A stretch of 48,152 nt of DNA from a virus: IMG/VR virus record IMGVR_UViG_3300007346_000045, positions 1 to 48,152 of that record. One strand, given 5' to 3'. Position 1 is the first letter of the stretch; every line of letters begins with the position of its first letter. The notes beneath the pieces were generated by a model, which saw nothing but the letters and a program-made list of their open reading frames with translations, was not told the origin of the DNA and did not search any database. Shown one piece after another: positions 463 through 20,347 of this stretch. The translations under genes and the position numbers were made by a program.

Positions 463-499
463 TTGCATTCAAAAAAAATCTGTGTTTTTATAGTTTTGG

Positions 500-1457: not shown

Positions 1458-1554
1458 TTTCTACCTCTCTGCGCATATAGCATTCGGCACACAGTGTGTC
1501 ATAGTCTGATTTTACCAGAGCATCCCTATCGCAGTACACACATTTCTCAGTCAT
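1354..1554 (-). CDS. Zinc-ribbon-like microprotein, unknown function
   Basis: The 66-residue product has two CxxC knuckles (C5-C8 and C22-C25) spaced like a treble-clef or zinc ribbon, so residues 1-28 look real. The start overlaps the stop of the preceding gene as TAATG. The remaining 38 residues are Ser/Thr/Arg-rich, overlap the next gene by 104 bases and look like non-coding frame. A TAG in the +1 frame sits just before the next ATG (TAGAAAATG), so an ancestral ending near residue 30 later altered by an indel is possible. Confidence 0.5.
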   Translation of the reverse strand: MTEKCVYCDRDALVKSDYDTLCAECYMRREVENARTHTSGSRTFTSSKARGRTMSRRLPSHRYKTP

Positions 1555-1976: not shown

Positions 1977-2289
1977 GACAAAGCTCCGTAATTACAAAAC
2001 TCCATTTTAGTGCGTTCCAAGTTCTACATTCATCTAGTGCCAGTTTAAAAGCTTCTGCTTCTTTTTGTGTTCTAAAAGAATATTTTTTTAATGTTTGATA
2101 CTCACCCTCTGCTCCCCAAAGGAGCGTTACAATGTTTTGAGGGTGCCCTGCTTTGAGGTGCTTTGAAATATCTTTCTTTCTTATTGTTGTAATTGTTTTT
2201 GATGCCAGTTTCATCGTTTTTTCGTTTGATTTTTTTGAAACGCATTTACTGTTCCAAAAAGGTGGATTGTCGTTATATTTTATTTTCAT
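1969..2289 (-). CDS. Hypothetical early protein (106 aa)
   Basis: A 106-residue basic protein. The central part (TIRKKDISKHLKAG) is Lys-rich, and the C-terminal half has alternating strands and a helix (FRTQKEAEAFKLALDEC), reminiscent of small alpha/beta single-domain proteins. The start overlaps the preceding stop as ATGA. No function is recognised. It belongs to the leftward early operon, between two other small proteins. Confidence 0.7.
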   Translation of the reverse strand: MKIKYNDNPPFWNSKCVSKKSNEKTMKLASKTITTIRKKDISKHLKAGHPQNIVTLLWGAEGEYQTLKKYSFRTQKEAEAFKLALDECRTWNALKWSFVITELCHD

Positions 2290-2519
2290 GGTCTTGCCCT
2301 TGGTCTAAGTACGGATGACACAACGTCTGTTTCTACGCAGGTCATAAAAATGTCATTGCCGTACAGCTTTACGATATGATCGTAGATCGGGTCAGCCAAC
2401 CCCTGATCCATTACTTGTTGACAATGGCTTTCCGAGGCGTAGACGATGGATGCAAGCGGCGCTGCATTGAATGACGCCATTTCGTAGTCGATCATCAGGA
2501 CAGTAAAGAACTCAATCAT
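2286..2519 (-). CDS. Hypothetical early protein (77 aa)
   Basis: Predicted 77 residues from ATG 2519. This start is chosen because its ATGA overlaps the stop of the small membrane-peptide gene; an in-frame GTG at 2528 would add three residues but breaks the overlap pattern of the operon. The protein has a hydrophobic N-terminus (IEFFTVLMIDYEM) and ends in a basic RPRARP. Function unknown. Confidence 0.65.
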   Translation of the reverse strand: MIEFFTVLMIDYEMASFNAAPLASIVYASESHCQQVMDQGLADPIYDHIVKLYGNDIFMTCVETDVVSSVLRPRARP

Positions 2520-2611
2520 AGCCACCACCCCGCGCTAATACCTGTTACGAATATTGCTGCAAGTACTATGGTCAATCCGAAGATGATCCAATCTTGTTTA
2601 TCAATGTTCAT
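2516..2611 (-). CDS. 31-residue single-span membrane peptide
   Basis: Starts MNIDKQDW and then has a hydrophobic run of about 20 residues (WIIFGLTIVLAAIFVTGISA) ending in GWWL. Both ends are joined to neighbours by ATGA overlaps: the start overlaps the stop of the helix-turn-helix gene and the stop overlaps the start of the next gene. That arrangement is strong evidence of real translation despite the small size. A negatively charged N-terminus followed by one membrane span suggests a small inner-membrane protein; its role is unknown. Confidence 0.7.
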   Translation of the reverse strand: MNIDKQDWIIFGLTIVLAAIFVTGISAGWWL

Positions 2612-2826
2612 AGCTCTGTCCTTTGCCCTTGTTTTTTTACCTTCCAATCAATCCCATATCTTTGTGCATAGTTATTGATCAGTGTGAGTGAGCGGCCTAG
2701 TATTCTAGCCGCTTCTGTTTGAGTGTAACCGCTCTCTGAAAGAGAGAGCAAAAGTTCTTTCTTTTCTCTCTTGTGACGAGCGGAAATTTCATCCCAAGTT
2801 TCAATGTATCTGTGAAGGTTTTCCAC
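2608..2826 (-). CDS. Helix-turn-helix protein (Fis/resolvase-like HTH)
   Basis: A 72-residue protein with a clear HTH (YTQTEAARILGRSLTLINNY) in its C-terminal half, preceded by a charged helix (SARHKREKKELLLSL). I prefer GTG at 2826: it follows AGGGAGAATGAC at ideal spacing, the same leader as the GTG-started gene at 8500. An in-frame ATG at 2853 would add nine residues and overlap the upstream gene. Likely a small DNA-binding regulator within the leftward operon; the target is unknown. Confidence 0.7.
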   Translation of the reverse strand: MENLHRYIETWDEISARHKREKKELLLSLSESGYTQTEAARILGRSLTLINNYAQRYGIDWKVKKQGQRTEL

Positions 2827-2836
2827 GTCATTCTCC

Positions 2837-3163
2837 CTAAAAGTTATAGTCATAAAAGCGGCGTGGCTTTTCGCTTAATCGGTATTTTGACCCATAGCGG
2901 TCTCGCCAAACCCCATCTTTATGTAATCGAATGCGAAGTGTGCGAAGGTTGTCATCGTTAGTAATTATCCATCGCTGTTCCGCGCTGTTTGCGCAGTGTC
3001 CAGCAAAGCCGCCCTGTTCCCATTTTGGGGTCCATGTAGGGTCTTGTTCAGCGTTCATTTCCCGTATTTCTAAGGTTTTCTCGCTTATCTTTTTGACAAC
3101 CTCATATGGATGAATGTCGCTATATCCGTGATAATTTGCGTATTGCATTTTTACTATCCTCAT
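2837..3163 (-). CDS. Hypothetical early protein (108 aa)
   Basis: A 108-residue soluble protein, aromatic and basic at the C-terminus (KPRRFYDYNF), with a Trp-rich middle (DPTWTPKWEQGGF). The start overlaps the preceding stop as ATGA. No known domain is visible to me. Part of the leftward early operon. Confidence 0.7.
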   Translation of the reverse strand: MRIVKMQYANYHGYSDIHPYEVVKKISEKTLEIREMNAEQDPTWTPKWEQGGFAGHCANSAEQRWIITNDDNLRTLRIRLHKDGVWRDRYGSKYRLSEKPRRFYDYNF

Positions 3164-3471
3164 TCGTAGAAGGCGAGGTCAAAGCCCCAATATGTTTCGC
3201 AGTGACCCCAAGGCCCATTTGCGAAAACTGCGATTGCCCAATCATGTGGACCGCTTTCCCAGCAAACGTGCCAAGCCTTCCCAACATATCCATGCTGTTG
3301 ACTTTCTTCTGGTGATTTAATCCAGACCTCATAATGAGGGTTCATGCCAGAGGCTCTACAAGCTTCGCAGAGTGCCTTATAAAGTGCTTTGGCTGCTGAT
3401 GCCTTGGTTTTGTATTTTGATGGCTCCCAGCGCAGGTTTAGGCGCTCTCCGGCCCATGTTTCGATAAGCAT
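3160..3471 (-). CDS. Hypothetical early protein (103 aa)
   Basis: 103 residues from ATG 3471. This start shares its A with the upstream stop (TAATG) and has AGGAAGGA at good distance; the in-frame ATG at 3480 sits directly on that Shine-Dalgarno and is less likely. The sequence is rich in Trp, His and Cys (HYEVWIK, WHVCWESGPHDW, FANGPWGHCE), suggesting a compact fold, possibly metal-binding. Function unknown. Confidence 0.7.
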   Translation of the reverse strand: MLIETWAGERLNLRWEPSKYKTKASAAKALYKALCEACRASGMNPHYEVWIKSPEESQQHGYVGKAWHVCWESGPHDWAIAVFANGPWGHCETYWGFDLAFYE

Positions 3472-3671
3472 TAGTCCCATTCCTTCCTGTCGATTTGATT
3501 GTCATAACCCTCGTAATAGTCAGCGATTTGCTCTGGGGTCATATCTTCCTCAAGAACTGGGTATCCCTTGTAAGTGCCTTGAGGCCAGTAATGTGGCTTT
3601 GCTGTACGCCAGTAATAAGCATCCGCTGATCCGCGATCCATTGGTGATCCGTGTTTGGGAAAGCTATTCAT
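3471..3671 (-). CDS. Conserved small phage protein with HGSPMDRGSADAYYW motif
   Basis: A 66-residue protein, the first gene of the leftward operon. Its N-terminal pattern (SFPKHGSPxDRGSADxYY, then PHYWP and TYKG) resembles small uncharacterised proteins I have seen in other phages and prophages; function unknown. It is highly polar and Tyr-rich. The start is well supported by AAGGAGAA ten bases upstream and by the promoter at 3701-3729. Confidence 0.75.
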   Translation of the reverse strand: MNSFPKHGSPMDRGSADAYYWRTAKPHYWPQGTYKGYPVLEEDMTPEQIADYYEGYDNQIDRKEWD

Positions 3672-3700
3672 ATTTGGTTCTCCTTATTGCCGATAAGAAC

Positions 3701-3729
3701 ACAATATTTTATTTTTGTGGATATGTCAA
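3701..3729 (-). promoter_or_regulatory. Leftward early promoter with TATCCACA element
   Basis: On the minus strand: TTGACA (3729-3724), 17-base spacer, TATTGT (3706-3701). TATCCACA follows the -35 directly. The transcript leader carries GGCAATAAGGAGAA before the 3671 start. The same module recurs at 4988-5016 and 20796-20824. Confidence 0.7.
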
Positions 3730-3780
3730 CACCTTTTGTGAAATTATTTCACTTTTTTGTGCATCAATCCATATTCTGTA

Positions 3781-4116
3781 TTACAAGCCGAATATGCGTT
3801 TCATTGTTTTTGTAATGAAATACCCTTCATGTTGCGGGTGTCGCGCCATAAATAAACGGGCGTACAGCGCAATAAAGTCATTGGAAACTTTATAAACTTC
3901 GTCATGCGTCATTGCAGTTTCCCATCTGACCCTGTTAGCGACCATCCAAGCGGAGCCGCGCTTAGGTCGACGCTGTATCATTTGTAAGCTGAACTGCTCA
4001 AAGAACTGAAAGGTCGCTGGATTGGTGCGCATGTGATATAAGAACTCAGTAGCAAGACATCCCTTTTCATTTGTCTTAACGCTATCAAGATAGTTAAAGA
4101 ACTCATTCTCATTCAT
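3781..4116 (-). CDS. Conserved phage/bacterial protein of unknown function (ANRVRWET family)
   Basis: A 111-residue protein with a pattern I recognise from many phages and prophages: a helix with FFEQFSLQMI, then SAWMVANRVRWETA, then NDFIALYARLFMARHPQHEGYF. No member with a proven function is known to me. The ATG at 4116 follows AAAGGAAA at good distance. It ends the 4961-3781 operon, just upstream of the next leftward promoter. Confidence 0.8.
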   Translation of the reverse strand: MNENEFFNYLDSVKTNEKGCLATEFLYHMRTNPATFQFFEQFSLQMIQRRPKRGSAWMVANRVRWETAMTHDEVYKVSNDFIALYARLFMARHPQHEGYFITKTMKRIFGL

Positions 4117-4137
4117 AGTCTGGTTTCCTTTTTTTGA

Positions 4138-4425
4138 TTACATCCATATTGTGCATGTGCCGCGACCATAAAAGTATTCATCTGGCATATCTGCGACAGT
4201 GTAGACAACTCTGTATCTTTGACCGATGTTGTCTTTGATTTGATCTTCGCTGGTAAGCTGTTCTTCCTCTGGTCGATTGATTGTTACACCATCTCTCTTG
4301 ATTGAGTTATTATGAGTAATTGTTATTTCGGACCCTTGCTCAAAATGCCAAATTGCCCACTCCTCATTGTAAGTCCAGAATACCCTTCTAGGCGTTGAAA
4401 TCCTAAACTGTAGTTTAGCTGTCAT
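4138..4425 (-). CDS. Hypothetical early protein (95 aa)
   Basis: 95 residues from ATG 4425, chosen over an in-frame TTG at 4437 because GGGGG lies just upstream of the ATG. The protein is mainly beta-prone with a Trp-rich segment (WTYNEEWAIWHFEQG) and ends DEYFYGRGTCTIWM. It overlaps the upstream gene by 11 bases. Function unknown. Confidence 0.65.
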   Translation of the reverse strand: MTAKLQFRISTPRRVFWTYNEEWAIWHFEQGSEITITHNNSIKRDGVTINRPEEEQLTSEDQIKDNIGQRYRVVYTVADMPDEYFYGRGTCTIWM

Positions 4426-4633
4426 CGTTACCCCCAAAGCATTGGTTCCACTCTTCTGGGATAATTCCCGACATCAAGAACTCGCGCTCATCATCGTTAA
4501 GCTGTGGCATTGCGTGCTGGATAAGTCTGCCGCTCTGCCAATCGTCAAGCTGCTCTTTGGTTATGGGCAGTTCCATTTCGTTAAGTTTTCCAGTTAACAT
4601 ACTGCGCTTTTGGATAAACATTCTGTGCCTCAT
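4415..4633 (-). CDS. Hypothetical early protein (72 aa)
   Basis: 72 residues from ATG 4633, which overlaps the upstream stop as ATGA and follows GGGGGAC; an in-frame TTG at 4648 is rejected. The first residues are basic (MRHRMFIQKRS) and the rest acidic with LNDDEREFLMSGIIPEEWN, which resembles small regulatory helical proteins. Not recognised. Confidence 0.65.
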   Translation of the reverse strand: MRHRMFIQKRSMLTGKLNEMELPITKEQLDDWQSGRLIQHAMPQLNDDEREFLMSGIIPEEWNQCFGGNDDS

Positions 4634-4797
4634 TGTTTTGTCCCCCAAGCATCGTCCATAAGGATTTGTTTGACTTGTGCTTCGGTCAGATCAAAGTGCC
4701 TCGCAACCTGCTTTATGGTTACGTTCATATTGCTGTCAAAGAACCAGCAAATTTCTTTCCGCATCATAAGGTCAACTTCTGAAATCCAATCGCCCAT
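4630..4797 (-). CDS. Small helix-turn-helix protein (55 aa)
   Basis: 55 residues from ATG 4797. The C-terminal half reads as an HTH (VTIKQVARHFDLTEAQVKQIL), a typical small DNA-binding unit; the N-terminal half is an amphipathic helix. An in-frame TTG at 4812 is less likely. The gene lies 2 bases from the upstream stop and overlaps the next start by ATGA. Probably a regulator; target unknown. Confidence 0.65.
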   Translation of the reverse strand: MGDWISEVDLMMRKEICWFFDSNMNVTIKQVARHFDLTEAQVKQILMDDAWGTKQ

Positions 4798-4799
4798 TT

Positions 4800-4961
4800 T
4801 TAATACTCCCAAATTGGTGAGAACCCGATGTCATGATCAAGGTAAACAACTGCTGATCCCAAGAATTTCCAATCGCATGACTTTGCGATGTATTCGCCCC
4901 AAGTTTTAGCTTCGTCTAAAGTGCTGAAGATTTTTTCTGATGTAAGTCTGTTAGCAATCAT
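4800..4961 (-). CDS. Short first gene of the 4961-3781 operon (53 aa)
   Basis: The frame from ATG 4961 runs 53 residues (MIANRLTSEKIFSTLDEAKT...SPIWEY). An excellent ribosome-binding site (AAGGAGAAAATGAC) is directly upstream, as is the shared promoter-leader module, so this is the first gene of the operon. The sequence is compact with a helix (TLDEAKTWGEYIAK) followed by strands. Function unknown. Confidence 0.7.
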   Translation of the reverse strand: MIANRLTSEKIFSTLDEAKTWGEYIAKSCDWKFLGSAVVYLDHDIGFSPIWEY

Positions 4962-4987
4962 GTCATTTTCTCCTTTTGCCTATTTAA

Positions 4988-5016
4988 CGAATATCACAAG
5001 ATTGTGGATAGGTCAA
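4988..5016 (-). promoter_or_regulatory. Leftward early promoter with TATCCACA element
   Basis: On the minus strand: TTGACC (5016-5011), 17-base spacer containing TATCCACA directly after the -35, then TATTCG (4993-4988, a weak -10). The leader has AGGCAAAAGGAGAA before the 4961 start. Closely parallels the module at 3701-3729. Confidence 0.6.
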
Positions 5017-5064
5017 CATCTTTTTTAAAATAATCATCGTTAATTTTACATAAAGTAACATCAG

Positions 5065-5091
5065 AAAAAATGGTAGCCCTTACGAGGGCTA
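5065..5091 (-). terminator. Probable intrinsic terminator for leftward transcription
   Basis: A perfect 7-bp stem TAGCCCT/AGGGCTA (5074-5091) with a 4-base loop; on the minus strand it is followed by CCA and six Ts. It would stop the 8500-5518 operon after it has run antisense through rusA. On the plus strand the same hairpin lies in the rusA leader. Confidence 0.55.
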
Positions 5092-5108
5092 TCTACTATA
5101 TCTAGTGC

Positions 5109-5582
5109 ATGGCACTACAGATATGTGAATTTAAAGTATATGGCACACCAATAGGTAAAGGCAGACCGCGCTTTACTCGTAATGGTCATACTTACACGCC
5201 AACCAAAACCAAAGACTATGAAAAGCGGGTTGCTTCGGCTGCATGGGCAGAAATGAAACGACAGGGTATCCAGCCTACAGATAGGCGGGTCAATATGATA
5301 ATTACAGCGTTCTTTGATATTCCTAAGTCATACTCAAAGGCTAAGACGATAGAATGCCAATGTGGAATAGTTATACCGCCACGCCCTGATATAGATAACA
5401 TCGGTAAAATCATTGCGGATGCTTGCAACAAAATTGTTTATGTAGATGACGCTCAAATTTGGTTTTTGGCTATGTCAAAGCAATATTGTGATCAAGGACA
5501 GCAAGCTCATGTCCATGTTAAAGTTCAGTGGGATGATCCGAGTAAGAATAGTCGGGACCATATAGTTCTCGCCACAATTTAG
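5109..5582 (+). CDS. rusA: RusA-family Holliday junction resolvase
   Basis: A 157-residue RusA-type endonuclease that resolves Holliday junctions and branched DNA during recombination and before packaging. The fold signature is clear: an N-terminal strand then IGKGRPRFTRNG, and the catalytic Asp cluster RPDIDNIGKIIADACN followed by VYVDDAQI. It is the only rightward gene in this early region; its 3' end overlaps the HNH gene on the other strand by 65 bases, so the two transcripts are antisense to each other. No good Shine-Dalgarno precedes the ATG; the only GAGGG is inside the hairpin at 5074-5091, about 20 bases away. Family assignment is secure. Confidence 0.9.
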   Translation: MALQICEFKVYGTPIGKGRPRFTRNGHTYTPTKTKDYEKRVASAAWAEMKRQGIQPTDRRVNMIITAFFDIPKSYSKAKTIECQCGIVIPPRPDIDNIGKIIADACNKIVYVDDAQIWFLAMSKQYCDQGQQAHVHVKVQWDDPSKNSRDHIVLATI

Positions 5583-7827: not shown

Positions 7828-8309
7828 TATTTCATCCTTATTGATATAGTTTCGGGTCCAGCGACCAATTCGGCCCCATCAATCTGAACTCCAGCTTTCA
7901 GTTGATTTTTTATTGCTACTTTATCTGGTGTGATAGTCACCTTGCAGAGTTGACTTGGTATCTTCCTTTCGTCGTGTATTAGCAAAGCCTCTGCGCCTTT
8001 GCGTAATGATATGGTTGCGAGTGTATGTGGTATTTTGCTTTGTCCCGTCCAAAGCAGTAGACGCTTTAGTGATAGCTTGAGACTATCGCGGCGTCTCTGA
8101 ATTGTATTCTTGCGATTGCTGTATTTTTCTATAATGGTTTGAACGGCCTCATATTGAGCATCGGTCTCTACGATTTGTTCAATAATGCTCCCTACAGCTT
8201 CCATAACATCTGTTTCCCCATCAAGTGTATCCCAGAATACTTCTAAGTCATCTTTAAACGGAGCAAGTTCCTCAGAAAGCATTGTAATAATTGCGCTGTC
8301 TAGTTTCAT
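7827..8309 (-). CDS. Siphovirus Gp157-like protein
   Basis: 160 residues. The layout matches the Gp157 family: an acidic helical N-terminal half (VMEAVGSIIEQIVETDAQYEAVQTIIEKYSNRK), then an Arg/Lys helix, then a strand-rich end with TISLRKGAEALLIHDERKIPSQ. Family members sit beside ERF or RecT annealases and were first noted in Streptococcus phage resistance; their activity is unknown. Both ends overlap neighbours by single-codon overlaps (ATGA, TAATG). Confidence 0.85.
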   Translation of the reverse strand: MKLDSAIITMLSEELAPFKDDLEVFWDTLDGETDVMEAVGSIIEQIVETDAQYEAVQTIIEKYSNRKNTIQRRRDSLKLSLKRLLLWTGQSKIPHTLATISLRKGAEALLIHDERKIPSQLCKVTITPDKVAIKNQLKAGVQIDGAELVAGPETISIRMK

Positions 8310-8500
8310 GGGGTTTTTCTCCCGTGCGCAATTTCAATGGCCTTGTTAATAATATCAGTCATTCCAACTGGTATTGATCGCTGCAAATACTTGAGGTGAT
8401 CTATTTCACCAGCTTCATATTGATCGTCAACTTGTCGCTGATGATCAATGAAAAGTTTGATTAATTCATCCTTCAAGTCAGCTGTGCTGGGTCTTTTCAC
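8306..8500 (-). CDS. First gene of the recombination operon, hypothetical (64 aa)
   Basis: A 64-residue helical, charged protein with no recognised domain. It starts at GTG 8500, after AAGGAGAATGAC at ideal spacing, and the promoter-leader module lies just upstream. Divergent from the regulator gene at 8581. Function unknown. Confidence 0.75.
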   Translation of the reverse strand: MKRPSTADLKDELIKLFIDHQRQVDDQYEAGEIDHLKYLQRSIPVGMTDIINKAIEIAHGRKTP

Positions 8501-8522
8501 GTCATTCTCCTTAAATTGCCTG

Positions 8523-8557
8523 TTTACTTATCTATCGAAAATGATAAATAATGTAAA
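8523..8557. promoter_or_regulatory. Divergent promoters and candidate operator
   Basis: Leftward: TTTACA (8557-8552), 17 bases, TAGATA (8534-8529). Rightward: TTTACT (8523-8528), 16 bases, TAAATA (8545-8550). Between and over the two lies an inverted repeat TTATC (8528-8532) / GATAA (8543-8547), spaced 10 bases, a fitting operator for the 63-residue repressor-like protein encoded to the right. Confidence 0.6.
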
Positions 8558-8580
8558 GAAAAAAATAGAAGGATTAACAA

Positions 8581-8771
8581 TGGAAGAAAAAACTAGCGGT
8601 TACATATCTGTTGAAGAGGCACGAGAGCGCCTCAAAGATAGGCGACTTAAATATGTAGCGGAAAGCATAGGCGTTACATACATGAGCCTCAGTAGATTGA
8701 TGAGAGGCGAAGGTAATCCCTCATTTAAGCTGTTGAGCGGCTTGACGGATTATTTTAATGAGAGGCCATAA
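8581..8771 (+). CDS. Cro/CI-type helix-turn-helix transcription regulator
   Basis: 63 residues from ATG 8581, following AGAAGGATTAACA. The HTH is visible as LKYVAESIGVTYMSLSRLMRG, followed by NPSFKLLSGLTDYF, which is the lambda-repressor-like (HTH_3) pattern of Cro-size regulators. It faces the recombination operon across an inverted repeat and should repress it or itself. No integrase or CI-sized partner is seen, so a regulator of early-to-late timing is as likely as a lysogeny switch. Confidence 0.8.
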
Positions 8772-8795
8772 AAAAAGACCCCCGCTCGGAGGGTC
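8770..8795 (-). terminator. Hairpin with a minus-strand U-tract
   Basis: A strong stem GACCC/GGGTC with inner CCG/CGG (8777-8795) stands right after the regulator stop. The A7 run is on its left, so the U-tract exists only on the minus strand. It could stop leftward antisense transcription, or act as a weak terminator for the regulator gene in the plus direction. Confidence 0.5.
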
Positions 8796-8846
8796 CAGAT
8801 ATGAGGCAGTTCGAACAGTAGTAAAACTTAAAGAGGATTAAGTTTC

Positions 8847-9536
8847 ATGTCCCATTATATGACCGCTCTTGCCATGAAGCAAGTAGGATTAAAGCCAGCA
8901 ACGAAAATAGTTCTTTATTGGCTTTCTGATCATCATAACAGCGAAACAGGAGAATGTTTCCCTAGCCATAAAAGATTAGCGGAGCTTTGCGAGATGACAG
9001 ACCGCAGCGTTCGCAATCACCTTGAGGAGTTGCAAAATTTGGGCCTCATAAAGATCGTAGAGAGAAAGCGCGATAATGGCTCACAGACTAGCAATAGCTA
9101 CCTACTGCAACTTATGGATACTTATGGCGACAACCACCCTAGGAAAAATATTCCTACCCCCTTGGAAAATATTTCCGACCAGCCAAGGAAAAATATTCCT
9201 ACCCTTAACCTTGGAAATAATAATCATGTAATTGAACCTAATAGGGCAAAATCAAAAAGAGCTACTTCTTTGCCAGATCAATGGGTTCCAAACCAAAAGA
9301 ATATTGCAGATGCAATATCAAGAGATTTTACAGAAGAGGAAATAACACATGAAGCGGAACAGTTCAGAAATTATCACCTTTCCAAAGGATCAACTTTCAA
9401 ATCATGGGATGCAGCATGGCGCACATGGCTTGGCAACGCTAGAAAGTTTTCCAAAGCATATAACGCCAGAACAGGCGGCAATGCTCAAACAATGCTGTCA
9501 GCATTTGGTAAACTCGCAAATAGATTGCAAGGATGA
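8847..9536 (+). CDS. Replication initiator, lambda O-like winged-helix protein
   Basis: 229 residues. The N-terminal ~90 are a winged-helix of the kind in phage replication O proteins and HTH_36 families (KIVLYWLSDHHNSETGECFPSHKRLAELC, then DRSVRNHLEELQNLGLI). The central part holds two near-identical peptide repeats (PRKNIPTP/ PRKNIPTL) that are encoded by palindromic DNA iterons. The C-terminal part resembles the DUF/phage O C-terminus (WDAAWRTWLGNA). It should bind the iterons and load host replication proteins with the next gene. ATG 8847 has AGAGGA upstream. Replication-origin-in-gene organisation strongly supports the call. Confidence 0.8.
   Translation: MSHYMTALAMKQVGLKPATKIVLYWLSDHHNSETGECFPSHKRLAELCEMTDRSVRNHLEELQNLGLIKIVERKRDNGSQTSNSYLLQLMDTYGDNHPRKNIPTPLENISDQPRKNIPTLNLGNNNHVIEPNRAKSKRATSLPDQWVPNQKNIADAISRDFTEEEITHEAEQFRNYHLSKGSTFKSWDAAWRTWLGNARKFSKAYNARTGGNAQTMLSAFGKLANRLQG
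9138..9225 (+). other. Candidate origin of replication: palindromic iterons inside the initiator gene
   Basis: Three copies of the dyad GGAAAAATATTCC or close variant lie at 9142-9154, 9164-9176 and 9187-9199, with a half-match GGAAATAATAA at 9213. Spacings are 22, 23 and 26 bases, about two helical turns, and an AT-rich stretch follows. This is the plan of lambda ori, where O protein binds iterons inside its own gene. Confidence 0.7.
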
Positions 9537-9858: not shown

Positions 9859-9907
9859 TAATATATCTAACATGATTTAGGAATAAATAAACATACGGAG
9901 GTAAAAA

Positions 9908-10483
9908 ATGAGCCAGTGGGCGGCAAAAGAGATCGAACAGATTGCAGTTGAAGATTTAATTCCATACGACAGAAACCCTAAAATTCATCCAGATACTCAA
10001 GTCAAACAGCTTGCAAATAGTATCCGTGAATGGGGTTGGACTATGCCTATTCTAGTAGATGAAAACACACAGGTAATTGCGGGGCATGGGCGTCTATTCG
10101 CAGCCAAAGAGTTAGACATGAAAGAGGTTCCTTGTATTAGAGCTACTGGATGGACGGAACAGCAAAAGAAAGCCTATGTTATTGCAGATAATAAACTTGC
10201 AGAAAATGGCGAGTGGGACACTAATGAGTATTTTTCTCAGCTAAAGGAAATGAGTAATGACGGCTTTGATCTGGGACTTATGGGTGTTGATATTGATATG
10301 TCAGCTTTTAACTATAACCCAGTATATGAGCCAACATTTGATGCGTCAGAGATTGACGAAAGCAAGATGGTAAAGGCAGACCAATATATGCAGCGCGACC
10401 AAGAGAACAGATTGATGGGTCGGGAGGGGACAGAAGTAATCTGCCCTCATTGCATGGAAACATTCGTATTTACGGGTAGATAA
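9908..10483 (+). CDS. ParB/Srx-domain protein with C-terminal zinc knuckle
   Basis: 191 residues. Residues 10-110 form a ParB N-terminal (ParB/sulfiredoxin) domain: LIPYDRNPKIHPD, then IREWGWTMPILVDENTQVIAGHGRLFAAK with the GHGR signature at 59-62. The C-terminus carries CPHC followed by ETFVFTGR, half of a zinc ribbon. Free-standing ParB domains in phages often precede DNA methyltransferases and modification genes. It opens the coupled cassette 9908-13713 and has a very strong Shine-Dalgarno (CGGAGGTAAAAA). NTP use versus DNA nuclease activity cannot be told from sequence. Confidence 0.85.
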   Translation: MSQWAAKEIEQIAVEDLIPYDRNPKIHPDTQVKQLANSIREWGWTMPILVDENTQVIAGHGRLFAAKELDMKEVPCIRATGWTEQQKKAYVIADNKLAENGEWDTNEYFSQLKEMSNDGFDLGLMGVDIDMSAFNYNPVYEPTFDASEIDESKMVKADQYMQRDQENRLMGREGTEVICPHCMETFVFTGR

Positions 10484-10779
10484 TGTCCATAGAAAGATTG
10501 TCAGAGAACTTGAGGAACGCGACCTATAAGTTCGCAAAGACAATGCCCTACATGCCGCATTTCTACACTGTTGGAAAAACGTGGGATGACTACAAAGAAT
10601 TTCTTTGGACATGTCATGCAATACAGGAACATGGGATTAAGCAGCAGTTTTTCAAAGACCCTAGAAAATACTTTTATTTAGATGGTTGGCGATATTGGAT
10701 TATGGACAAAGACCCCAATGACGCGGCAATCATAAACCGAGAGCGTGAAACAATTAGGATGCCAAAATGGTCAGAATAA
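10483..10779 (+). CDS. Conserved phage protein (YTVGKTWDD / WRYWIMD family), unknown function
   Basis: 98 residues starting in a TAATG overlap with the ParB-like gene. The order PHFYTVGKTWDDYKEFLW, HGIKQQFF, YFYLDGWRYWIMDKDP and INRERE recalls a widely distributed phage family usually next to DNA modification or glycosyltransferase genes. Aromatic residues are dense. No enzymatic motif is obvious. Its fixed place between ParB-like and glycosyltransferase genes suggests it serves the same pathway. Confidence 0.7.
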   Translation: MSIERLSENLRNATYKFAKTMPYMPHFYTVGKTWDDYKEFLWTCHAIQEHGIKQQFFKDPRKYFYLDGWRYWIMDKDPNDAAIINRERETIRMPKWSE

Positions 10780-11336
10780 TTGTAAAAGCTATGCCATCCA
10801 GACAGCCGTATATTGATTATTTACGGAAATATTTGCCGCAAGCCGAATTTTGCATGGACCAAGGTAAAGGCGCATTTGATACTTTTTTGCGTGCTTTGAA
10901 AATGGCTGGTACAGAGCCATGCATACATATGGAAGAAGATGTCATTTTGACCGATGGGTTTTACAACAAGATACATGAGATCATAGCAAAAAAGCCCAAT
11001 AACTTTATACAGTTTTTTTCGATGCGGCAGAAGGACCTTACAGAAGGTTCGCGTTGGGATAATAATTTTCTAATGAACCAATGTTGGTATGCACCAATGT
11101 TCTATTCGGAAAAGATGCTTAAGTATGCGATGGGATGGTACTTGAAAAATGGAAAAATACACCCAACAGGAACAGATACTATGGTGTGTGATTGGTTAAA
11201 GTCTCGCAAGGAAAAGTATTGGATACACTGCCCAAGTCTTGTTGATCATCGAATTGGCAAGTCAGCTATAGACCCGCGCCGTTCTTCTAAGCGTCAATCA
11301 CTAACATTTAGGAATGGTATATATGACGATTTATAA
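10767..11336 (+). CDS. Phage glycosyltransferase-like protein
   Basis: 189 residues. A nucleotide-sugar site is suggested by CIHMEEDVILTDGF (an EED version of the D-x-D metal-binding motif) around residue 55. The ending CPSLVDHRIGKSAIDPRRSSKRQSLTF is a hallmark I know from phage-encoded glycosyltransferases of the GT25-like type. It could glycosylate DNA bases made by neighbouring enzymes or a virion or host surface target. The cassette context favours DNA. It overlaps both neighbours by 13 and 14 bases. Confidence 0.7.
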   Translation: MVRIIVKAMPSRQPYIDYLRKYLPQAEFCMDQGKGAFDTFLRALKMAGTEPCIHMEEDVILTDGFYNKIHEIIAKKPNNFIQFFSMRQKDLTEGSRWDNNFLMNQCWYAPMFYSEKMLKYAMGWYLKNGKIHPTGTDTMVCDWLKSRKEKYWIHCPSLVDHRIGKSAIDPRRSSKRQSLTFRNGIYDDL

Positions 11337-11919
11337 CTCAGCATTAAAAAACGGCACAAAGCAATTCGAGGGATACCCGCCCACACAAAGGTTTGAACAT
11401 GAGGGCTGCATCGGTATGCGGCGTAACATAATAACCGAGGGGTATTTTGCAGAGTTAGAAACCTGTGATATTATTTATTGCGAGCCACCATTCCCTGCGG
11501 GAGTAAAGGTGTTTGATGAGCGAGCTAAAGAAAAGACATCATCTTATAACGATTTTGCCCACCAGTTTGCAGTGCTTTGGGAAAGACTTTCACACAAACC
11601 AAGATTGGCTATTACTAACAAGCGGTTAGAAAAAGCACTTCCAAAACCAGATGTGCAAGTAAAAGTCAGGCTGAATACCAATTGGGAAACACTTAGCTGT
11701 TGGGGCATAACACCACCTAGCGGAATGAGTAATCTAGGGGTGTGTGAATATCTGGGTAAGACATTCAATAGAATGGGGGATATTACATGCGGCTATGGTG
11801 TTCCTGTCTTGCACTTTAAGAAAGTAAAATCTGGCAATACATTTGTAGCATCAGATTATGACGCTCACTGCATTACAGTTTTAAGGATGTTGATGAATGA
11901 AAATACACCTCAAAGATAA
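11323..11919 (+). CDS. DNA methyltransferase-like protein (beta-class order, degenerate motifs)
   Basis: 198 residues from ATG 11323, which has AGGAA nine bases upstream; an in-frame ATG at 11314 sits on that Shine-Dalgarno. The catalytic motif appears as CDIIYCEPPFPAG (EPPF in place of DPPY), and a SAM-site-like GDITCGYGVPVLHF followed by VASDYDAHCITVL (motif I and II style) comes afterwards, the permuted order of beta-class amino-methyltransferases. EPPF rather than D/N-PP-Y/F is unusual and may mean another base chemistry. It is linked by overlap to both glycosyltransferase and IbrA-like genes. Confidence 0.6.
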   Translation: MTIYNSALKNGTKQFEGYPPTQRFEHEGCIGMRRNIITEGYFAELETCDIIYCEPPFPAGVKVFDERAKEKTSSYNDFAHQFAVLWERLSHKPRLAITNKRLEKALPKPDVQVKVRLNTNWETLSCWGITPPSGMSNLGVCEYLGKTFNRMGDITCGYGVPVLHFKKVKSGNTFVASDYDAHCITVLRMLMNENTPQR

Positions 11920-13054
11920 TGTTTGCGATGCAGCATTAGAGCGTATTCGTTACATCTTTGACGAGTTTGAGAACGTAATAGTATCGTTTTCAGGCGGCAA
12001 GGATAGCACAGTAACCCTTGAGATGGCGTTAATCGTTGCGCGTGAAAGAAATCGCTTGCCGCTTAAAGTATTATTTTTAGATCAGGAAGCCGAATGGCAG
12101 TGCGTAATTGACTATGTGCAAGAAGTCATGGAGCGGGATGAGATTGAACCGATGTGGTTTCAAATGCCCATCCGTTTGACCAATAGTACATCGAATGAGC
12201 AACACTATCTGCATTGTTGGGAGGACGGTAGCGAATGGATGCGCGAAAAAGTCCCTTACGCTATTACAGAAAACGATTATGGCACAGATCGGTTCCACGA
12301 ACTTTTCCCCGCAATATACAAAAAGCACTGGGATGGGCAAAGGCTTGCTGTTTTGGCAGGGATCAGGGCAGAAGAAAGCCCCGCTCGACTAGCGGGACTA
12401 ACAACGGCGGCGACTTATAAGTGGGTTACATGGGGTAAACATCCAAACAAAAGCCGAGAGCATTACAATTTCTACCCCCTGTATGATTGGTCATATACTG
12501 ATATTTGGAAATCCATCCATGACAATAATTGGTCATATTCCAAAGCGTATGATTACTTTTATCAATATGGAGTAAGCCCAACCAAGATGCGCGTGTCAAA
12601 TCTTCACCATGAAACAGCAGTTCATCAGTTGTTTTATTTACAGGAGATTGAGCGAGACACATGGAACAAGCTGACAAAGCGTCTAGGCGGTATTAATCAG
12701 GCACGGCATATGACGAAAGAGGATATGTTCCAAGCCAAGAAACTTCCATATATGTTCAAGGATTGGAAAGAATACAGAGATCATCTGTTGATAAATCTTG
12801 TTACTGATCATGATTACCAAGAGGCCATGCGTAAGAAGTTCGCGCAGATGGACAATGTTTATGCTGCAATGAAAGATATATCCAAGCTGCATAAGGTGCA
12901 TGTTGCTACAGTCTTAGCACAGGATATTGATTTCACTAAATGCAGTAATTTCGAGCAAGGGCCGTATGCTATAACTTATCGTCGTTGGAAGCGCGGCGAC
13001 ACGAAGTTTGTGCAGCGGTCAGAACATAGGGACTGGATACCAGTAAAGACATGA
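11897..13054 (+). CDS. IbrA-like PAPS-reductase-family protein (DUF3440)
   Basis: 385 residues. The PP-loop of PAPS reductases/ATP pyrophosphatases, SGGKDST, is at 32-38. AVLAGIRAEESPAR follows, then FYPLYDWSYTDIW and the long DUF3440 C-terminal part (VSPTKMRVSNLHHE, QEIERDTWNKLTKRLGGINQARH). This is the IbrA layout. E. coli IbrA works with IbrB, a ParB-like protein, and the next gene is just that. The enzyme should activate a substrate with ATP, for instance in sulfur transfer or base modification; the substrate is unknown. It overlaps the methyltransferase-like gene by 23 bases. Confidence 0.88.
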   Translation: MKIHLKDNVCDAALERIRYIFDEFENVIVSFSGGKDSTVTLEMALIVARERNRLPLKVLFLDQEAEWQCVIDYVQEVMERDEIEPMWFQMPIRLTNSTSNEQHYLHCWEDGSEWMREKVPYAITENDYGTDRFHELFPAIYKKHWDGQRLAVLAGIRAEESPARLAGLTTAATYKWVTWGKHPNKSREHYNFYPLYDWSYTDIWKSIHDNNWSYSKAYDYFYQYGVSPTKMRVSNLHHETAVHQLFYLQEIERDTWNKLTKRLGGINQARHMTKEDMFQAKKLPYMFKDWKEYRDHLLINLVTDHDYQEAMRKKFAQMDNVYAAMKDISKLHKVHVATVLAQDIDFTKCSNFEQGPYAITYRRWKRGDTKFVQRSEHRDWIPVKT

Positions 13055-13713
13055 AGATCATTAGTCAACTAGAGCAAGCCTTACATGGGCTAAGTGAGAA
13101 CGACAAAATAGAAATGATCGAAAAGATCAAAGATCACTTGCATAAGGAAAGCCCAATCCAACAGCCCGTTGATCGGGTCTATTGGGTTGATGTTGATAAA
13201 GTAGAGGCTAACGATTACAACCCCAACAGTGTAGCGGGTAAAGAAATGCGTTTGCTTTACACCTCAATCAAGCATGACGGATACACGCAGCCCGTAGTAA
13301 CCATCTATGACGAAGAAAAAGGCAAGTATGTCATCGTAGATGGGTTTCACCGCTATTTTATCTGTAAGAGCAATCAGGACATCAGAGATCGTAACAAGGG
13401 CAGACTGCCCATCGTTGTCATTGAGAAAGACATCAATGATCGTATGGCCTCAACAGTCCGTCACAATCGGGCCAGAGGCGCACACTCAGTCGATGGCATG
13501 GCGAACATGGTATTCTCTATGTTAGAGGAAGGTTGGGGCGATGCGGAAATCTGTAACCAGTTGGGTATGGAGCCAGAAGAATTATTGCGGCTAAAGCATA
13601 TTACTGGCTTCTCAAAGCTATTTGTAGATGCCGAATACAAAAAGGCATGGGTAACTAAACAGCAAATCTTGATTAAAAAGAAGTGGCAAGATGAGCATGG
13701 GGTTGACCAATAG
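13051..13713 (+). CDS. IbrB-like ParB-domain protein
   Basis: 220 residues. The ParB/Srx core is at about 44-125: VDVDKVEANDYNPNSV, IKHDGYTQPVV, YVIVDGFHRYFI (DGFHR at 97-101), then VRHNRARGAHSVDGMANMVFSMLEEGW, a trait of IbrB and related ParB proteins. An HTH-like helix pair (DAEICNQLGMEPEELLRL) follows. It starts within the IbrA-like stop (ATGA), the usual IbrA-IbrB order. The pair is thought to act together; target in phages is not established. Confidence 0.88.
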   Translation: MKIISQLEQALHGLSENDKIEMIEKIKDHLHKESPIQQPVDRVYWVDVDKVEANDYNPNSVAGKEMRLLYTSIKHDGYTQPVVTIYDEEKGKYVIVDGFHRYFICKSNQDIRDRNKGRLPIVVIEKDINDRMASTVRHNRARGAHSVDGMANMVFSMLEEGWGDAEICNQLGMEPEELLRLKHITGFSKLFVDAEYKKAWVTKQQILIKKKWQDEHGVDQ

Positions 13714-13757
13714 CTTACCGCTGGTAAAAAGTGAAAATAAGTGATAATGTTGGTGAC

Positions 13758-14378
13758 ATGAGTAACAAAATAGAAGAGGCGCTACGCCGAAAGATCAAAG
13801 AAGAGTTTGTTCATGGCTACATCGATGAAAACGGTGTGCGCCAATACCCCTCTATTATAGCTCTATCCAAGCGACACGATGTTGCTAATGTTTCCCTGCA
13901 CAGATGGTCAAAAAAAGAAGATTGGCAGGGGGAAAAGAACAAAGTGCAGACCGAATATGAATTAGCGGTGCAAAGAGAGCGTCAACAATTAATGGTGCAA
14001 AATGGCACCTTATTAGACGATAGGTCAATCAATCTTGCTTTTGGGATGATGAGCGATGTAGCAAGGCGCTTAACCGAAGATCAAGAAAACAGAAAAACAT
14101 TGAACGAAATTCTTAATATCCCAAGTGCTCAAGAAAGAGATGAGCAACTAAGAAAGTTCAACACTAAACATAAAATTCTGACAGCGCATGATTTAAACTC
14201 AATTGCGGGGGTTGTGGCTACTGCTCAAAAGATCGGCAAATTAGCACTTGGTCAGGCTCAAGAGATTAGCAAGGTTTCCGCTCATGTTACAGCACCAGAT
14301 AGTTTACGACAGGTTATCGCAGACTTGGACGAACTTGCCGCAGCGAAGTCATCAACAGCAAAGCACACTATACAGTGA
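13758..14378 (+). CDS. terS: Terminase small subunit
   Basis: 206 residues from ATG 13758 (GGTGAC upstream), preferred to GTG 13731. The N-terminal third has an HTH-like region (SIIALSKRHDVANVSLHRWSKKEDW) that would recognise the packaging site, followed by long helices expected to oligomerise. It precedes and overlaps the large terminase, the standard place. Assignment is by HTH and position; the family is divergent. Confidence 0.75.
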   Translation: MSNKIEEALRRKIKEEFVHGYIDENGVRQYPSIIALSKRHDVANVSLHRWSKKEDWQGEKNKVQTEYELAVQRERQQLMVQNGTLLDDRSINLAFGMMSDVARRLTEDQENRKTLNEILNIPSAQERDEQLRKFNTKHKILTAHDLNSIAGVVATAQKIGKLALGQAQEISKVSAHVTAPDSLRQVIADLDELAAAKSSTAKHTIQ

Positions 14379-15579
14379 TTGGCTGAAAATGGCTCGACCA
14401 GAGCAAATTACCCCTGTTGGGGATTGGAATGTCTGGTTAATCTTAGCGGGGCGTGGTTGGGGCAAGACAATGACGGGGGCATTTGATACGATGATCTATG
14501 CCCTTAACAATCCAGAAAGCCGTGTAGCTGTAGTCGTTCCTACATTTGGCGATCTTCGCCGTGTAGCTTTTGGTGGTGTTTCTGGTATACTCAAGTGGTT
14601 ACCAGATGAGTGCTTGCTAAAAGGCAGAGGTCAAGGATACTCCTCATCAGCGCAAGAAATAAGGCTTTACAATGGCTCATTGATACAAGGCTTTGCGGCT
14701 ACAGAGCCAGAACGACTTAGGGGGCCACAGTTTCATAGGGCTTGGTGCGACGAGGTTGCAGCTTGGTTTTATCCAGAAGCTTTTGACCAACTAATGTTTG
14801 GCTTGCGTCTAGGCGAAAATCCGCAATGCGTTATTACAACAACACCAAAGCCGAATGAGCTTACCCGTTCATTGATCAAGAGAACTGGTACTGTTGTGAC
14901 TAGGGGTAGCACGTTTGACAATGCTGCAAATCTTGCTCCCGCCGCATTGCAGCAATTGAAAGAAAAATATGACGGGACAAGGCTTGGCAGACAAGAGCTT
15001 TACGCAGAGGTGCTTGATGATATAGAAGGCGCACTCTGGTCTTGGTCTATGATTGAGGGAAGTAGACTTTCAGATCAAAATTTACCAGAGCTTCAAAGAA
15101 TTGTGGTAGCTTTGGACCCCGCTGTTACAAGCGGTGACGATAGCGATGAAACAGGGATAATTGTTGCAGCAAGGGGTGAAAATGATGAGTTTTATGTGTT
15201 AGAAGATGCTACAATGAAGGCAAGTCCCGATGGGTGGGCGCGAAAAGCGGTAGAGCTTTACCACAAATATAACGCGGATCGAATTATCGCAGAAGTAAAC
15301 AACGGTGGAGATTTGGTCGAAAGAGTGGTAAGAACTATAGAGAGAGTTCCTTACTCAGCAGTTCGCGCTAGTCGTGGTAAGCTAGTAAGGGCTGAACCGA
15401 TTGCGGCGCTTTATGAGCAAAGGAAAGTTCATCATGTCAAAGAATTTAAAGAGTTGGAGGACCAATTGATTTCATATACTCCAACATCCAAATCGTCACC
15501 TGACAGATTGGACGCCCTTGTATGGGCTTTGACAGAGTTATCGCAGCGTAGTGGCAAGCCATCGTGGAGAATAAGTTAA
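14284..15579 (+). CDS. terL: Terminase large subunit
   Basis: A 431-residue packaging motor. Walker A is AGRGWGKT (55-62), Walker B is AWCDEVAAW (CDE) near residue 153, and the C-terminal RNase H-like nuclease has VVALDPAVTSGDDSDETG and AEVNNGGD with a late Asp in SPDRLDALVWAL. The start is uncertain: I choose ATG 14284 because the upstream LSQTWTNLP...WLKMARPEQ region is typical of homologues, although it overlaps terS by 95 bases; ATG 14389 is an alternative. ATP-driven packaging and headful or site-specific cutting are expected. Confidence 0.93.
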   Translation: MLQHQIVYDRLSQTWTNLPQRSHQQQSTLYSDWLKMARPEQITPVGDWNVWLILAGRGWGKTMTGAFDTMIYALNNPESRVAVVVPTFGDLRRVAFGGVSGILKWLPDECLLKGRGQGYSSSAQEIRLYNGSLIQGFAATEPERLRGPQFHRAWCDEVAAWFYPEAFDQLMFGLRLGENPQCVITTTPKPNELTRSLIKRTGTVVTRGSTFDNAANLAPAALQQLKEKYDGTRLGRQELYAEVLDDIEGALWSWSMIEGSRLSDQNLPELQRIVVALDPAVTSGDDSDETGIIVAARGENDEFYVLEDATMKASPDGWARKAVELYHKYNADRIIAEVNNGGDLVERVVRTIERVPYSAVRASRGKLVRAEPIAALYEQRKVHHVKEFKELEDQLISYTPTSKSSPDRLDALVWALTELSQRSGKPSWRIS

Positions 15580-19706: not shown

Positions 19707-19764
19707 CGTTTACCTCCAAAGTTTTAAGATATTGTATTGGTTTAAGCCTAGCAGAACCCGACAT
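19699..19764 (-). CDS. Possible 21-codon coupling ORF
   Basis: A very short frame (MSGSARLKPIQYLKTLEVNDD) starts at ATG 19764 with a strong CGGAGGTAATC leader and stops over the start of the next gene. It overlaps the end of the GIY-YIG gene. It may bring ribosomes to the 19706 start rather than make a functional peptide. Confidence 0.35.
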   Translation of the reverse strand: MSGSARLKPIQYLKTLEVNDD

Positions 19765-20347
19765 GATTACCTCCGTAATAATCAAAGTAATCATCTCCAC
19801 AAATGACGTCAGCATTTATCAAGTCTACAAAATTATAAACCTCTGTAAAAACTGGTTTGTTTTTCTTCAATCTGTTTTTTCTCACTACTTGTTTATTAAA
19901 TATTGGTCGCATCTTTGCAATCGCTAACGCTTCTACATCTCTTGCCTCTTCATATGTTTGGAAATATGATGTCATAATAAAATCAACTGAGTACCACCAT
20001 GATTTATCATTTCGGTGCTGTCTTATTCGACTGCGAAGATTGTAAGTACAGCCAATGTAAAGGGGTATTACTCTCTTGTTTGGGCTATTCCCCTCTTTGT
20101 CGGCGTCTGGTAAAGAGCCAAGCAAGTAAACAGAATAGTGTTTTTTGAATGTTTTATGAGAACGATCCCTGCCCTCTGGCAAGCACTCAAAATGGTTCCA
20201 GATAAAGGCATTAGCAAATTGTTCATCTGAGGCCGCAGTTAATGGTTTGTCTTTCGGAAATGACATGGAATAGTTAAGACCATGGTTCCAATAATACATA
20301 GTCTCAGGGGGCGTTCTGGTCCATTTCTTTAGAGAAAGTTTAGTCAT
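19748..20347 (-). CDS. GIY-YIG endonuclease
   Basis: 199 residues. The catalytic GIY-YIG core spans about 70-155: KHYSVYLLG (71-77, GIY strand), PLYIGCTYNLRSRIRQH (LYIG at 96-99 with the conserved Arg and His), then SYFQTYEEARDVEALAIAKMRPIFNK with the catalytic Glu and Asn. The first 60 residues are an unfamiliar extension. Could be a homing endonuclease, a restriction-like nuclease or an anti-competitor factor. It lies in the accessory island that splits the head genes, as mobile nucleases often do. Confidence 0.88.
   Translation of the reverse strand: MTKLSLKKWTRTPPETMYYWNHGLNYSMSFPKDKPLTAASDEQFANAFIWNHFECLPEGRDRSHKTFKKHYSVYLLGSLPDADKEGNSPNKRVIPLYIGCTYNLRSRIRQHRNDKSWWYSVDFIMTSYFQTYEEARDVEALAIAKMRPIFNKQVVRKNRLKKNKPVFTEVYNFVDLINADVICGDDYFDYYGGNHVGFC

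Follow-up and report, generated by a model that had tools for sequence, protein, structure and literature searches.

We describe a six-gene cassette at positions 9908-13713 of the 48,152-base IMG/VR virus record IMGVR_UViG_3300007346_000045 (the window, below, is this whole record), in which a ParB-like protein (ParB1, gene 1), a small protein called WRY (gene 2), a GT25-like glycosyltransferase (GT, gene 3), a predicted methyltransferase (gene 4), an IbrA-like protein of the 3'-phosphoadenosine-5'-phosphosulfate (PAPS) reductase superfamily (gene 5) and its ParB-superfamily partner IbrB (gene 6) follow one another. Comparison with related loci, many of them from uncultured viruses, shows that the position held here by gene 4 has repeatedly been swapped between enzyme types while the core of the cassette was kept. 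We consider it fairly probable that the cassette makes a modification that carries a sugar and is assembled in several steps, its most likely target being the bases in the DNA of the phage itself, prior to packaging. A first-pass annotation, made from the sequence alone, had recognized the six genes; beyond it, gene 4 proves to be one option of an exchangeable slot, and other loci have the gene 2 domain joined to a methyltransferase. What is new is the exchangeable slot together with the IbrA-IbrB core, phage DNA hypermodification itself being already known.

A conserved core with an exchangeable fourth position

An open reading frame (ORF) check of the window finds all six genes on the + strand, at the coordinates at which they were first noted. 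With the most upstream starts, all five junctions overlap, by 1, 13, 23, 23 and 4 nt, and the same order recurs in many distinct contigs, which upholds the view of the first-pass annotation that the six overlapping genes form one functional unit.

A scan of IMG/VR with gene 3 returned 20 loci, four of them near-identical to the window. Profile scans added others (80 of 119 relatives of the GT family were kept in the viral scan, and an oxygenase-like family described below contributed 54 loci), and a scan of genome contigs gave five contigs from metagenome-assembled genomes. Loci that differ in the last 120 residues of GT were counted as distinct, 86 in all, and 51 of these have at least 3 kb of sequence to the left and at least 3.5 kb to the right. 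Within 5 kb of GT in the 51 flanked loci, each gene being counted under its best label, IbrA is present in 49, IbrB in 48 and ParB1 in 41, with Microbacterium phage Hendrix, whose cassette runs over the ends of its record, scored as lacking IbrB and ParB1. WRY, counted with a profile built from short WRY proteins only, is found in 35. GT, IbrA and IbrB stand together in 48 of the 51, and the possibility raised at the outset, that in homologues these genes never travel together, falls away with this neighbourhood search. No IbrA, IbrB or ParB1 lies on the opposite strand within 5 kb of GT in these loci. Adjacent cassette genes overlap or lie no more than 10 nt apart in 195 of 221 pairs if the most upstream starts are taken, a choice that favours overlap, and in 174 of 219 pairs when only ATG starts are allowed. 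A large terminase of the window's type is found within 5 kb of GT in 27 flanked loci and within 7 kb in 30. Since IbrA-like genes occur in only 215 of the 50,697 named phage records, the association of GT with IbrA is not background.

The cassette genes are under purifying selection in the sampled pairs of related loci: dN/dS lies between 0.00 and 0.27 for matching genes in the pairs where it could be estimated, values that are rough because many dS exceed 1, and the range leaves out rows of 21-25% identity (ParB1 or IbrB against a non-orthologue) and rows without dS. When the window is set against L017, identity is 77% for ParB1, 77% for IbrA, 80% for IbrB and 76% for the large terminase and only 55% for GT, and the gene in the fourth position is a different one. 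The layout also varies in smaller ways. Both L115 and L138 have IbrB upstream of GT, and each carries a protein of about 285 amino acids, with no Pfam match, between the fourth gene and IbrA (8154-9017 and 4460-5308, respectively); in L111 a gene at 10031-10870 that looks by eye like a family 2 glycosyltransferase, with no Pfam match at 0.01, lies between IbrB and a ParB gene with a CxxC tail.

Three enzyme types were distinguished in the fourth position, or slot 4: an oxygenase-like protein (OX), an acetyltransferase (GNAT) and the methyltransferase of gene 4 (MT). Over the 86 loci, OX is present in 48, GNAT in 15, MT in 8 and none of these in 15, and in no locus do two types occur together. 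The OX share is inflated by loci that entered through the oxygenase scan, and one locus counted under none is Hendrix, whose divergent GNAT escapes the GNAT profile (E 0.0017). What lies directly between GT and IbrA was tallied in 74 loci, where it is OX in 43, GNAT in 12, MT in 7, a WRY-methyltransferase fusion in 4 and none of these in 8. When types were placed at random, freedom from overlap arose in 0 of 200,000 trials for the 86 loci and in 2 of 200,000 for the 51, relatedness being ignored in both.

Trees of 68 loci, 58 rows of which have a typed slot, give the history of these exchanges. At least 10 slot-type changes are needed on a quick GT tree, 11 on a careful one and 12 on each of the IbrA and IbrB trees, compared with a mean of 16.8-17.0 for shuffled labels; on the GT tree, the well-supported branches alone require a minimum of 5 changes for OX, 3 for MT and 2 for GNAT. 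The scatter of MT equals chance (7 changes for 7 rows, 6.8 when shuffled). A single well-supported GT clade contains L038 with OX, L143 with MT, L034 with OX, L137 with GNAT and L140 with MT. Joint exchange of GT and the slot-4 gene was also considered and was set aside, the difference between 10-11 changes on the GT trees and 12 on those of IbrA and IbrB being too small.

Proteins of the cassette

By sequence the assignment of gene 4 is weak (PF05175, E 0.0013, below the Pfam cut-off), and a search of the sequences in PDB gives chance matches only. A structure model based on 8 sequences (mean predicted local distance difference test, pLDDT, 86.2) has a Rossmann-like fold of permuted order, with the strand bearing EPPF (residues 57-60) first and the GYG strand (160-162) later. 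Its top fold match is M.BceJIV (Z 12.1, root-mean-square deviation (rmsd) 3.0, 159 residues aligned), together with a rotifer DNA N4-cytosine methyltransferase (Z 12.1, rmsd 3.2, 162 aligned), followed by other DNA amino-methyltransferases and then METTL3, at Z about 9; Foldseek gives M1.HpyAVI at 1.3e-4. The predicted fold is that of a permuted (beta-class) DNA amino-methyltransferase, in which the PP motif precedes the S-adenosylmethionine (SAM) motif, so that a methyltransferase-like protein with EPPF, as first annotated, is what the model also indicates. The catalytic tetrapeptide of permuted DNA amino-methyltransferases is D/N/S-PP-Y/F/W; in the gene 4 family it is EPPF or EPPW in 6 of 8 members and EPAW and EVPW in the two others, the first residue being E. 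The true start of the gene may lie a few codons downstream.

OX, which occupies slot 4 in most relatives, is about 170 amino acids long, with H84, D86 and H130 invariant in 42 rows. Its model (pLDDT 96.2) is a double-stranded beta-helix with an HxD...H arrangement. The best Foldseek match is aspartyl/asparaginyl beta-hydroxylase (AspH) at 1e-4, and the best in VIA a non-heme nucleoside-antibiotic hydroxylase (Z 8.2, rmsd 3.5, 124 aligned), a score of borderline significance, with plain cupins close behind; the PDB sequence search yields chance matches only. There is good reason, from the model, to assign OX a cupin-type or oxygenase fold. No TET/JBP match was found by Pfam at E 0.1 in the 42 OX members or in the window's six proteins. 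Some loci have additional enzymes. L098 encodes a sugar-nucleotide epimerase inside its cassette (PF01370, 1.9e-44), while L060, L070 and L132 have Methyltransf_24 proteins, which in L060 and L070 also match TylF.

The GT of the window matches phrog_854, a glucosyltransferase by annotation, at 1e-7. Among 65 relatives searched against Pfam at E 0.1, 12 match PF01755 (GT25; best 5.6e-5) and 3 match PF00535 (GT2), while the window's own copy has no Pfam match at that threshold; the PDB sequence search again returns chance matches only. As candidate residues of an acidic metal motif, D58 is invariant in 65 rows, and E56 and D58 are both invariant in a 13-row alignment. A single-sequence query with the GT of L066 found no match in plasmids.

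ParB1 matches ParB_N (PF02195, 2.4e-7), phrog_620 (4.5e-50) and phrog_498, a DNA methyltransferase family (1.7e-45), the last being aligned over its ParB-like part only (29-158 of 633). The MTase_II model of PADLOC likewise matches the ParB part of the protein, residues 3-129, at 7.5e-32. A CxxC motif is present within the last 35 residues of 43 of the 44 proteins labelled ParB1 in flanked loci. By these matches ParB1 is of the ParB_N kind found in phages either alone or within DNA-methyltransferase families. WRY has no match in Pfam, PHROG, NCBIfam or PADLOC. In 9 other loci the WRY match lies inside proteins of more than 200 amino acids, where the WRY domain is N-terminal, and of the three fusions scanned, those of L012 and L144 have a class-I SAM methyltransferase as their C-terminal part (Methyltransf_25, 9.4e-10 and 1.1e-8, respectively) and that of L066 has no Pfam match.

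IbrA combines a PAPS_reduct domain (PF01507, 2.9e-17) with DUF3440 (PF11922, 6.8e-7) and matches phrog_2302 at 6.2e-84, and IbrB matches the ParB family phrog_2159 at 2.9e-73, with ParB_N at 1.9e-4, below the Pfam cut-off. Profiles of the two families recover IbrA (5.2e-77) and IbrB (4.6e-67) of Escherichia phage PhiR5_2, and the first-pass naming of genes 1, 5 and 6 as ParB-like, IbrA-like and IbrB-like agrees with all of these matches. The SGGKDS loop is present in 74 of 78 IbrA rows, including that of the window. The column richest in cysteine has Cys in 48 of the 78 rows, with C107 of the window among them and Ala in 15 rows. ECGxH is the motif of assimilatory PAPS reductase (CysH), and it occurs in 0 of the 78 IbrA rows; against the CysH family TIGR00434 the score is 18.4, with a cut-off of 165.1. 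The PDB sequence search with IbrA finds PP-loop proteins of several functions over short stretches, and the reaction can therefore not be read from them. Given that the SGGKDS loop is intact, that no cysteine is near-invariant, that the CysH motif is absent and that the DndC score (below) is low, it seems more likely, as far as the sequences indicate, that IbrA activates a group by adenylation than that it carries sulfur.

A proposed pathway and its alternatives

In the pathway that we propose, ParB1 and IbrB would bring the enzymes to DNA, spend nucleoside triphosphate (NTP) there, or both; IbrA would activate one position by adenylation at the expense of ATP, in the manner of PP-loop ligases; the GT25-like enzyme, so named from the family match of its relatives, would transfer a sugar; and the slot-4 enzyme would cap or tailor the product, presumably by methylation here and by oxidation or acetylation in relatives. 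DNA is the likeliest substrate because of the predicted fold of gene 4, the presence of ParB proteins, the recurrent position beside the terminase, the absence of membrane-like segments and the precedents discussed below. The step-wise hypermodification of phage DNA suggested by the first-pass annotation thus stands as an architecture, with GT, methyltransferase and IbrA-IbrB travelling together, whereas DNA as the target keeps the standing of a likely interpretation. Enzymes with the amino-methyltransferase fold and GNAT enzymes usually act on amino groups, and the slot-4 enzyme types hint at an amine on the product. Frequent exchange of the slot, even between close relatives, alongside a retained core makes it probable that selection favours change in the cap, for instance as an escape from modification-dependent restriction. 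More tentatively, it is possible that IbrA-IbrB, with IbrA as the ATP-dependent activator, is the core of a novel glycosylated-base DNA hypermodification in which one exchangeable position sets the cap (methyl, hydroxyl or acetyl), the caps being traded by recombination against modification-dependent restriction.

Several observations weigh against this pathway. Two of the 51 flanked loci, L081 and L118, carry GT with no convincing IbrA nearby, and ParB1 is missing in 10 of the 51, including Hendrix, where it is found at the opposite end of the record. Most IbrA-like genes occur without this GT: of the 215 records, only 2, both of Hendrix, have a GT match. The test of exclusivity among slot types was made without correction for relatedness, L107 has two OX copies, one of them about 3.7 kb upstream of GT, and L060, L070, L098 and L132 carry an extra gene beside OX, so that a rule of one cap only is limited to OX, MT and GNAT. 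The residues of OX that are invariant after H130 are S146 and D148, with no arginine, where AspH, to judge from entry titles, has R735; dependence of OX on 2-oxoglutarate is unsure for want of an invariant arginine after the distal histidine. Finally, the IbrA-IbrB pair of PhiR5_2 is annotated as a gene-expression co-activator, and the family names of the sugar-handling enzymes would allow a glycan or small molecule as substrate.

The last of these points leads to the view that the cassette modifies something other than DNA, such as a phage or host surface glycan, a nucleotide or a small molecule, with the ParB proteins acting as NTPase- or kinase-like enzymes. The name GT25 comes from lipopolysaccharide synthesis and that of TylF from a macrolide sugar, a TylF-type methyltransferase and an epimerase are found in relatives, and IbrB has weak NCBIfam matches to the kinases SbnI (0.012) and SerK (0.016), both far below cut-off. 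We nevertheless find this view rather doubtful, given that gene 4 folds, in its model, like DNA amino-methyltransferases, that there are two ParB proteins, one of a type that also forms part of DNA-methyltransferase families, and that none of the six proteins has a membrane-like stretch (highest 19-residue Kyte-Doolittle mean 0.84); nor was a flippase or polymerase partner noticed, although no search was aimed at one. IbrA-IbrB is known in E. coli as an activator of prophage (eib) gene expression, and the pair might be a regulator that switches on late or lysogenic-conversion genes, the other enzymes being passengers. That would suit the homology to proteins that PhiR5_2 has under the annotation of co-activators of prophage gene expression and the fact that neither PhiR5_2 nor Streptococcus phage CHPC1230 has a GT annotated beside the pair. 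It is improbable all the same, as one would not expect passengers to keep a tight order in 48 of 51 loci or to be under purifying selection, and a regulatory effect could itself stem from DNA modification.

Modification modules often belong to restriction systems, and the cassette could serve a phage or prophage in anti-phage defence or superinfection exclusion instead of modifying its DNA; the MTase_II match of ParB1 and weak PADLOC matches of IbrA to BrxP and DndC point that way. We rate this a little lower still than a regulatory role, there being no recognized restriction nuclease among the six genes (some ParB families are labelled nuclease in PHROGs) and a large terminase of the window's type lying within 7 kb in 30 of the 51 loci. 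The first-pass annotation had looked to DndC for the chemistry of IbrA, and transfer of sulfur, as phosphorothioate or thiolated base, in the manner of DndC or SspD would accord with weak DndC matches (TIGR03183, 1.5e-5; PADLOC DndC, 1.4e-7). The TIGR03183 match has only 24.1 bits where the cut-off is 290.4, cysteine reaches no more than the 48 of 78 rows given above for any column, ECGxH is missing throughout, and in PADLOC none of the six cassette proteins matches a desulfurase, DndD or DndE, nor do these and ten further ORFs of the window include a DndD/DndE or SspB/SspC partner. DndC-like sulfur chemistry was rejected on the grounds of the low score, the lack of a near-invariant cysteine and the lack of a CysH motif, and sulfur transfer of any kind is in our estimate very improbable. 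A dyad of conserved cysteines is given as unique to DndC in the excerpt available of PMC12839542, and two annotation papers, likewise seen as excerpts, class phage PAPS-reductase genes as sulfur-metabolism genes (PMC6145125, PMC10434257).

Genome context, cultured carriers and known systems

The coordinates of the cassette and its immediate neighbours are collected in Table 1. Elsewhere the window encodes an endolysin, NinB/Orf, an Erf-like annealing protein, a head maturation protease, a major head protein and, by PHROG match, a replication-initiation-like gene. Among the matches listed for its large terminase, identity is below 50% and the hosts are unrelated. A second acetyltransferase-like gene (41140-41595, + strand; phrog_1249, 1e-10) lies in the late region, far from the cassette; an endonuclease-like gene (19748-20347, - strand; phrog_16880, 6.8e-15) lies on the opposite strand between the terminase and the head genes; and a 250-amino-acid protein encoded at 586-1338 (- strand) has a weak PADLOC match to mads_2 (1.6e-5).

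Table 1. Positions of the cassette genes and of the features next to them in the window.
Feature	Position	Strand	Basis
Strong ribosome-binding sequence GGAGGT, ahead of gene 1	9897..9902	+	sequence
Gene 1, ParB1: ParB_N protein, 191 aa, C-terminal CxxC zinc-ribbon-like tail	9908..10483	+	
Gene 2, WRY protein, 98 aa	10483..10779	+	without family match
Gene 3, GT25-like glycosyltransferase (GT), 189 aa	10767..11336	+	phrog_854
Gene 4, slot-4 enzyme: predicted circularly permuted SAM methyltransferase, 201 aa	11314..11919	+	predicted fold
Gene 5, IbrA: PP-loop (PAPS-reductase superfamily) and DUF3440, 385 aa	11897..13054	+	PF01507, PF11922
Gene 6, IbrB: ParB-superfamily partner, 220 aa, DGFHR motif	13051..13713	+	phrog_2159, ParB_N
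Probable small terminase, neighbour outside the cassette	13731..14378	+	phrog_4151 DNA binding protein, 3.7e-4; precedes large terminase
Large terminase, neighbour; start probably further in	14248..15579	+	PF17289 1.7e-19, PF03237 2.6e-16

In the named phage records, single-sequence queries, which miss distant relatives, find Microbacterium phage Hendrix only (two records) with GT and nothing with gene 4, WRY, the OX of L024 or the WRY-methyltransferase fusion of L012; the WRY profile, unlike the single WRY query, does match proteins of Hendrix and of Microbacterium phage Leaf. At the end of the Hendrix record stand GT, another gene annotated as a glycosyltransferase, a WRY-methyltransferase, a GNAT (Pfam 1e-8) and, last of all, IbrA; the record starts with three ParB-like genes followed by the large terminase. 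The first of these ParB-like genes is an IbrB homologue (2.9e-87), and the other two are ParB1-like (1.6e-50 and 1.4e-54), with CxxC tails. Since the Hendrix genome is circularly permuted, according to the excerpt available of PMC7302621, the genes at the two record ends make up a single cassette next to the terminase. A gene annotated 'Rnase E' (1994-2530) separates the ParB genes of Hendrix (L158) from the large terminase and has no match to a small-terminase profile. In Leaf, IbrA is accompanied by a WRY-methyltransferase, an acetyltransferase and two glycosyltransferases, the last two from a different Pfam family. In Salgado and 022DV001 an IbrA-like gene is accompanied by ParB proteins and annotated methyltransferases, and Mycobacterium phage Akoma (L152) has, at positions 1-4474, the left end of its record, a ParB gene, two small genes, a PAPS-reductase-like gene, a second ParB gene and the large terminase; other mycobacteriophage records have a PAPS-reductase-like gene at the same position. 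Judged by sequence, the IbrA neighbours in Salgado, 022DV001 and Akoma fit a core that is used with different partners.

Phage TET/JBP enzymes with their glycosyltransferases, base J and the glucosylated hydroxymethylcytosine of T4 are all cases in which a base is hydroxylated or methylated and then glycosylated. The cassette differs from the TET/JBP type in that OX is absent from the window and that the OX of its relatives resembles AspH-like or cupin proteins. Mom of phage Mu is a GNAT-like DNA modifier, and the GNAT variant of the slot likewise places a protein of that family in a phage modification cassette; the likeness is at family level only, and, unlike Mu, the window has no GNAT. The E. 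coli prophage pair of PhiR5_2 is homologous to that of the window and has the same order, with the PP-loop/DUF3440 protein ahead of the ParB-like one, but it lacks GT, WRY and a slot-4 enzyme in the stretch read, and its role is known by annotation only.

Close in plan is Synechococcus phage S-B43, where, in the excerpt available of PMC12783734, CmoX, a homologue of C5-methyltransferases, and the AMP-forming amide ligase CmoY make 5-glycylcarboxymethylcytosine, as found by liquid chromatography-mass spectrometry, and where CmoX/CmoY are accompanied by a ParBc protein in many contigs. As far as that excerpt goes, CmoA-CmoX-CmoY shares with the cassette a methyltransferase-fold enzyme, an ATP-dependent AMP-forming ligase (in the cassette, the role that we infer for IbrA) and a ParB-type protein, a handle being installed and then extended. 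CmoX is, however, homologous to C5-cytosine methyltransferases and CmoY to asparagine synthetase, and the window's six proteins match neither (Pfam, E 0.1); the window adds a glycosyltransferase and uses IbrA/DUF3440 instead. The Dnd/Ssp systems resemble the cassette in having a PP-loop protein and a ParB-superfamily protein (DndB) that act on DNA, to go by excerpts of PMC10853773, PMC12839542 and PMC12707154, but the cassette has no score at DndC level, no near-invariant cysteine and no desulfurase, DndD or DndE match. In Dpd, which inserts 7-deazaguanine (DpdA, DpdB), a base-modifying enzyme is paired with a ParB-like ATPase, again from the excerpt of PMC12839542; unlike Dpd, the cassette has no TGT-like Pfam match. 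The pelagiphage genes in the available part of PMC9599517 differ from this cassette. A search of the open literature, incomplete in its coverage, found no description of a cassette in which a ParB protein and a PAPS-reductase-type protein occur with a GT, an acetyltransferase or hypermodification, in keeping with the initial impression that the combination has not been described as a system.

If the proposed pathway is right, IbrA-IbrB, so far regarded as 'co-activators', would gain a function. No described activity was found for the IbrA-like genes of the 215 named phage records, and the cassette makes their function testable by mass spectrometry; Hendrix is a cultured carrier of the whole cassette, and Akoma, also cultured, carries the IbrA-type gene. 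The parts could become reagents for writing groups onto DNA. For the phages themselves, the cassette suggests a decoration of DNA whose outer group is swapped in the way that a surface antigen is.

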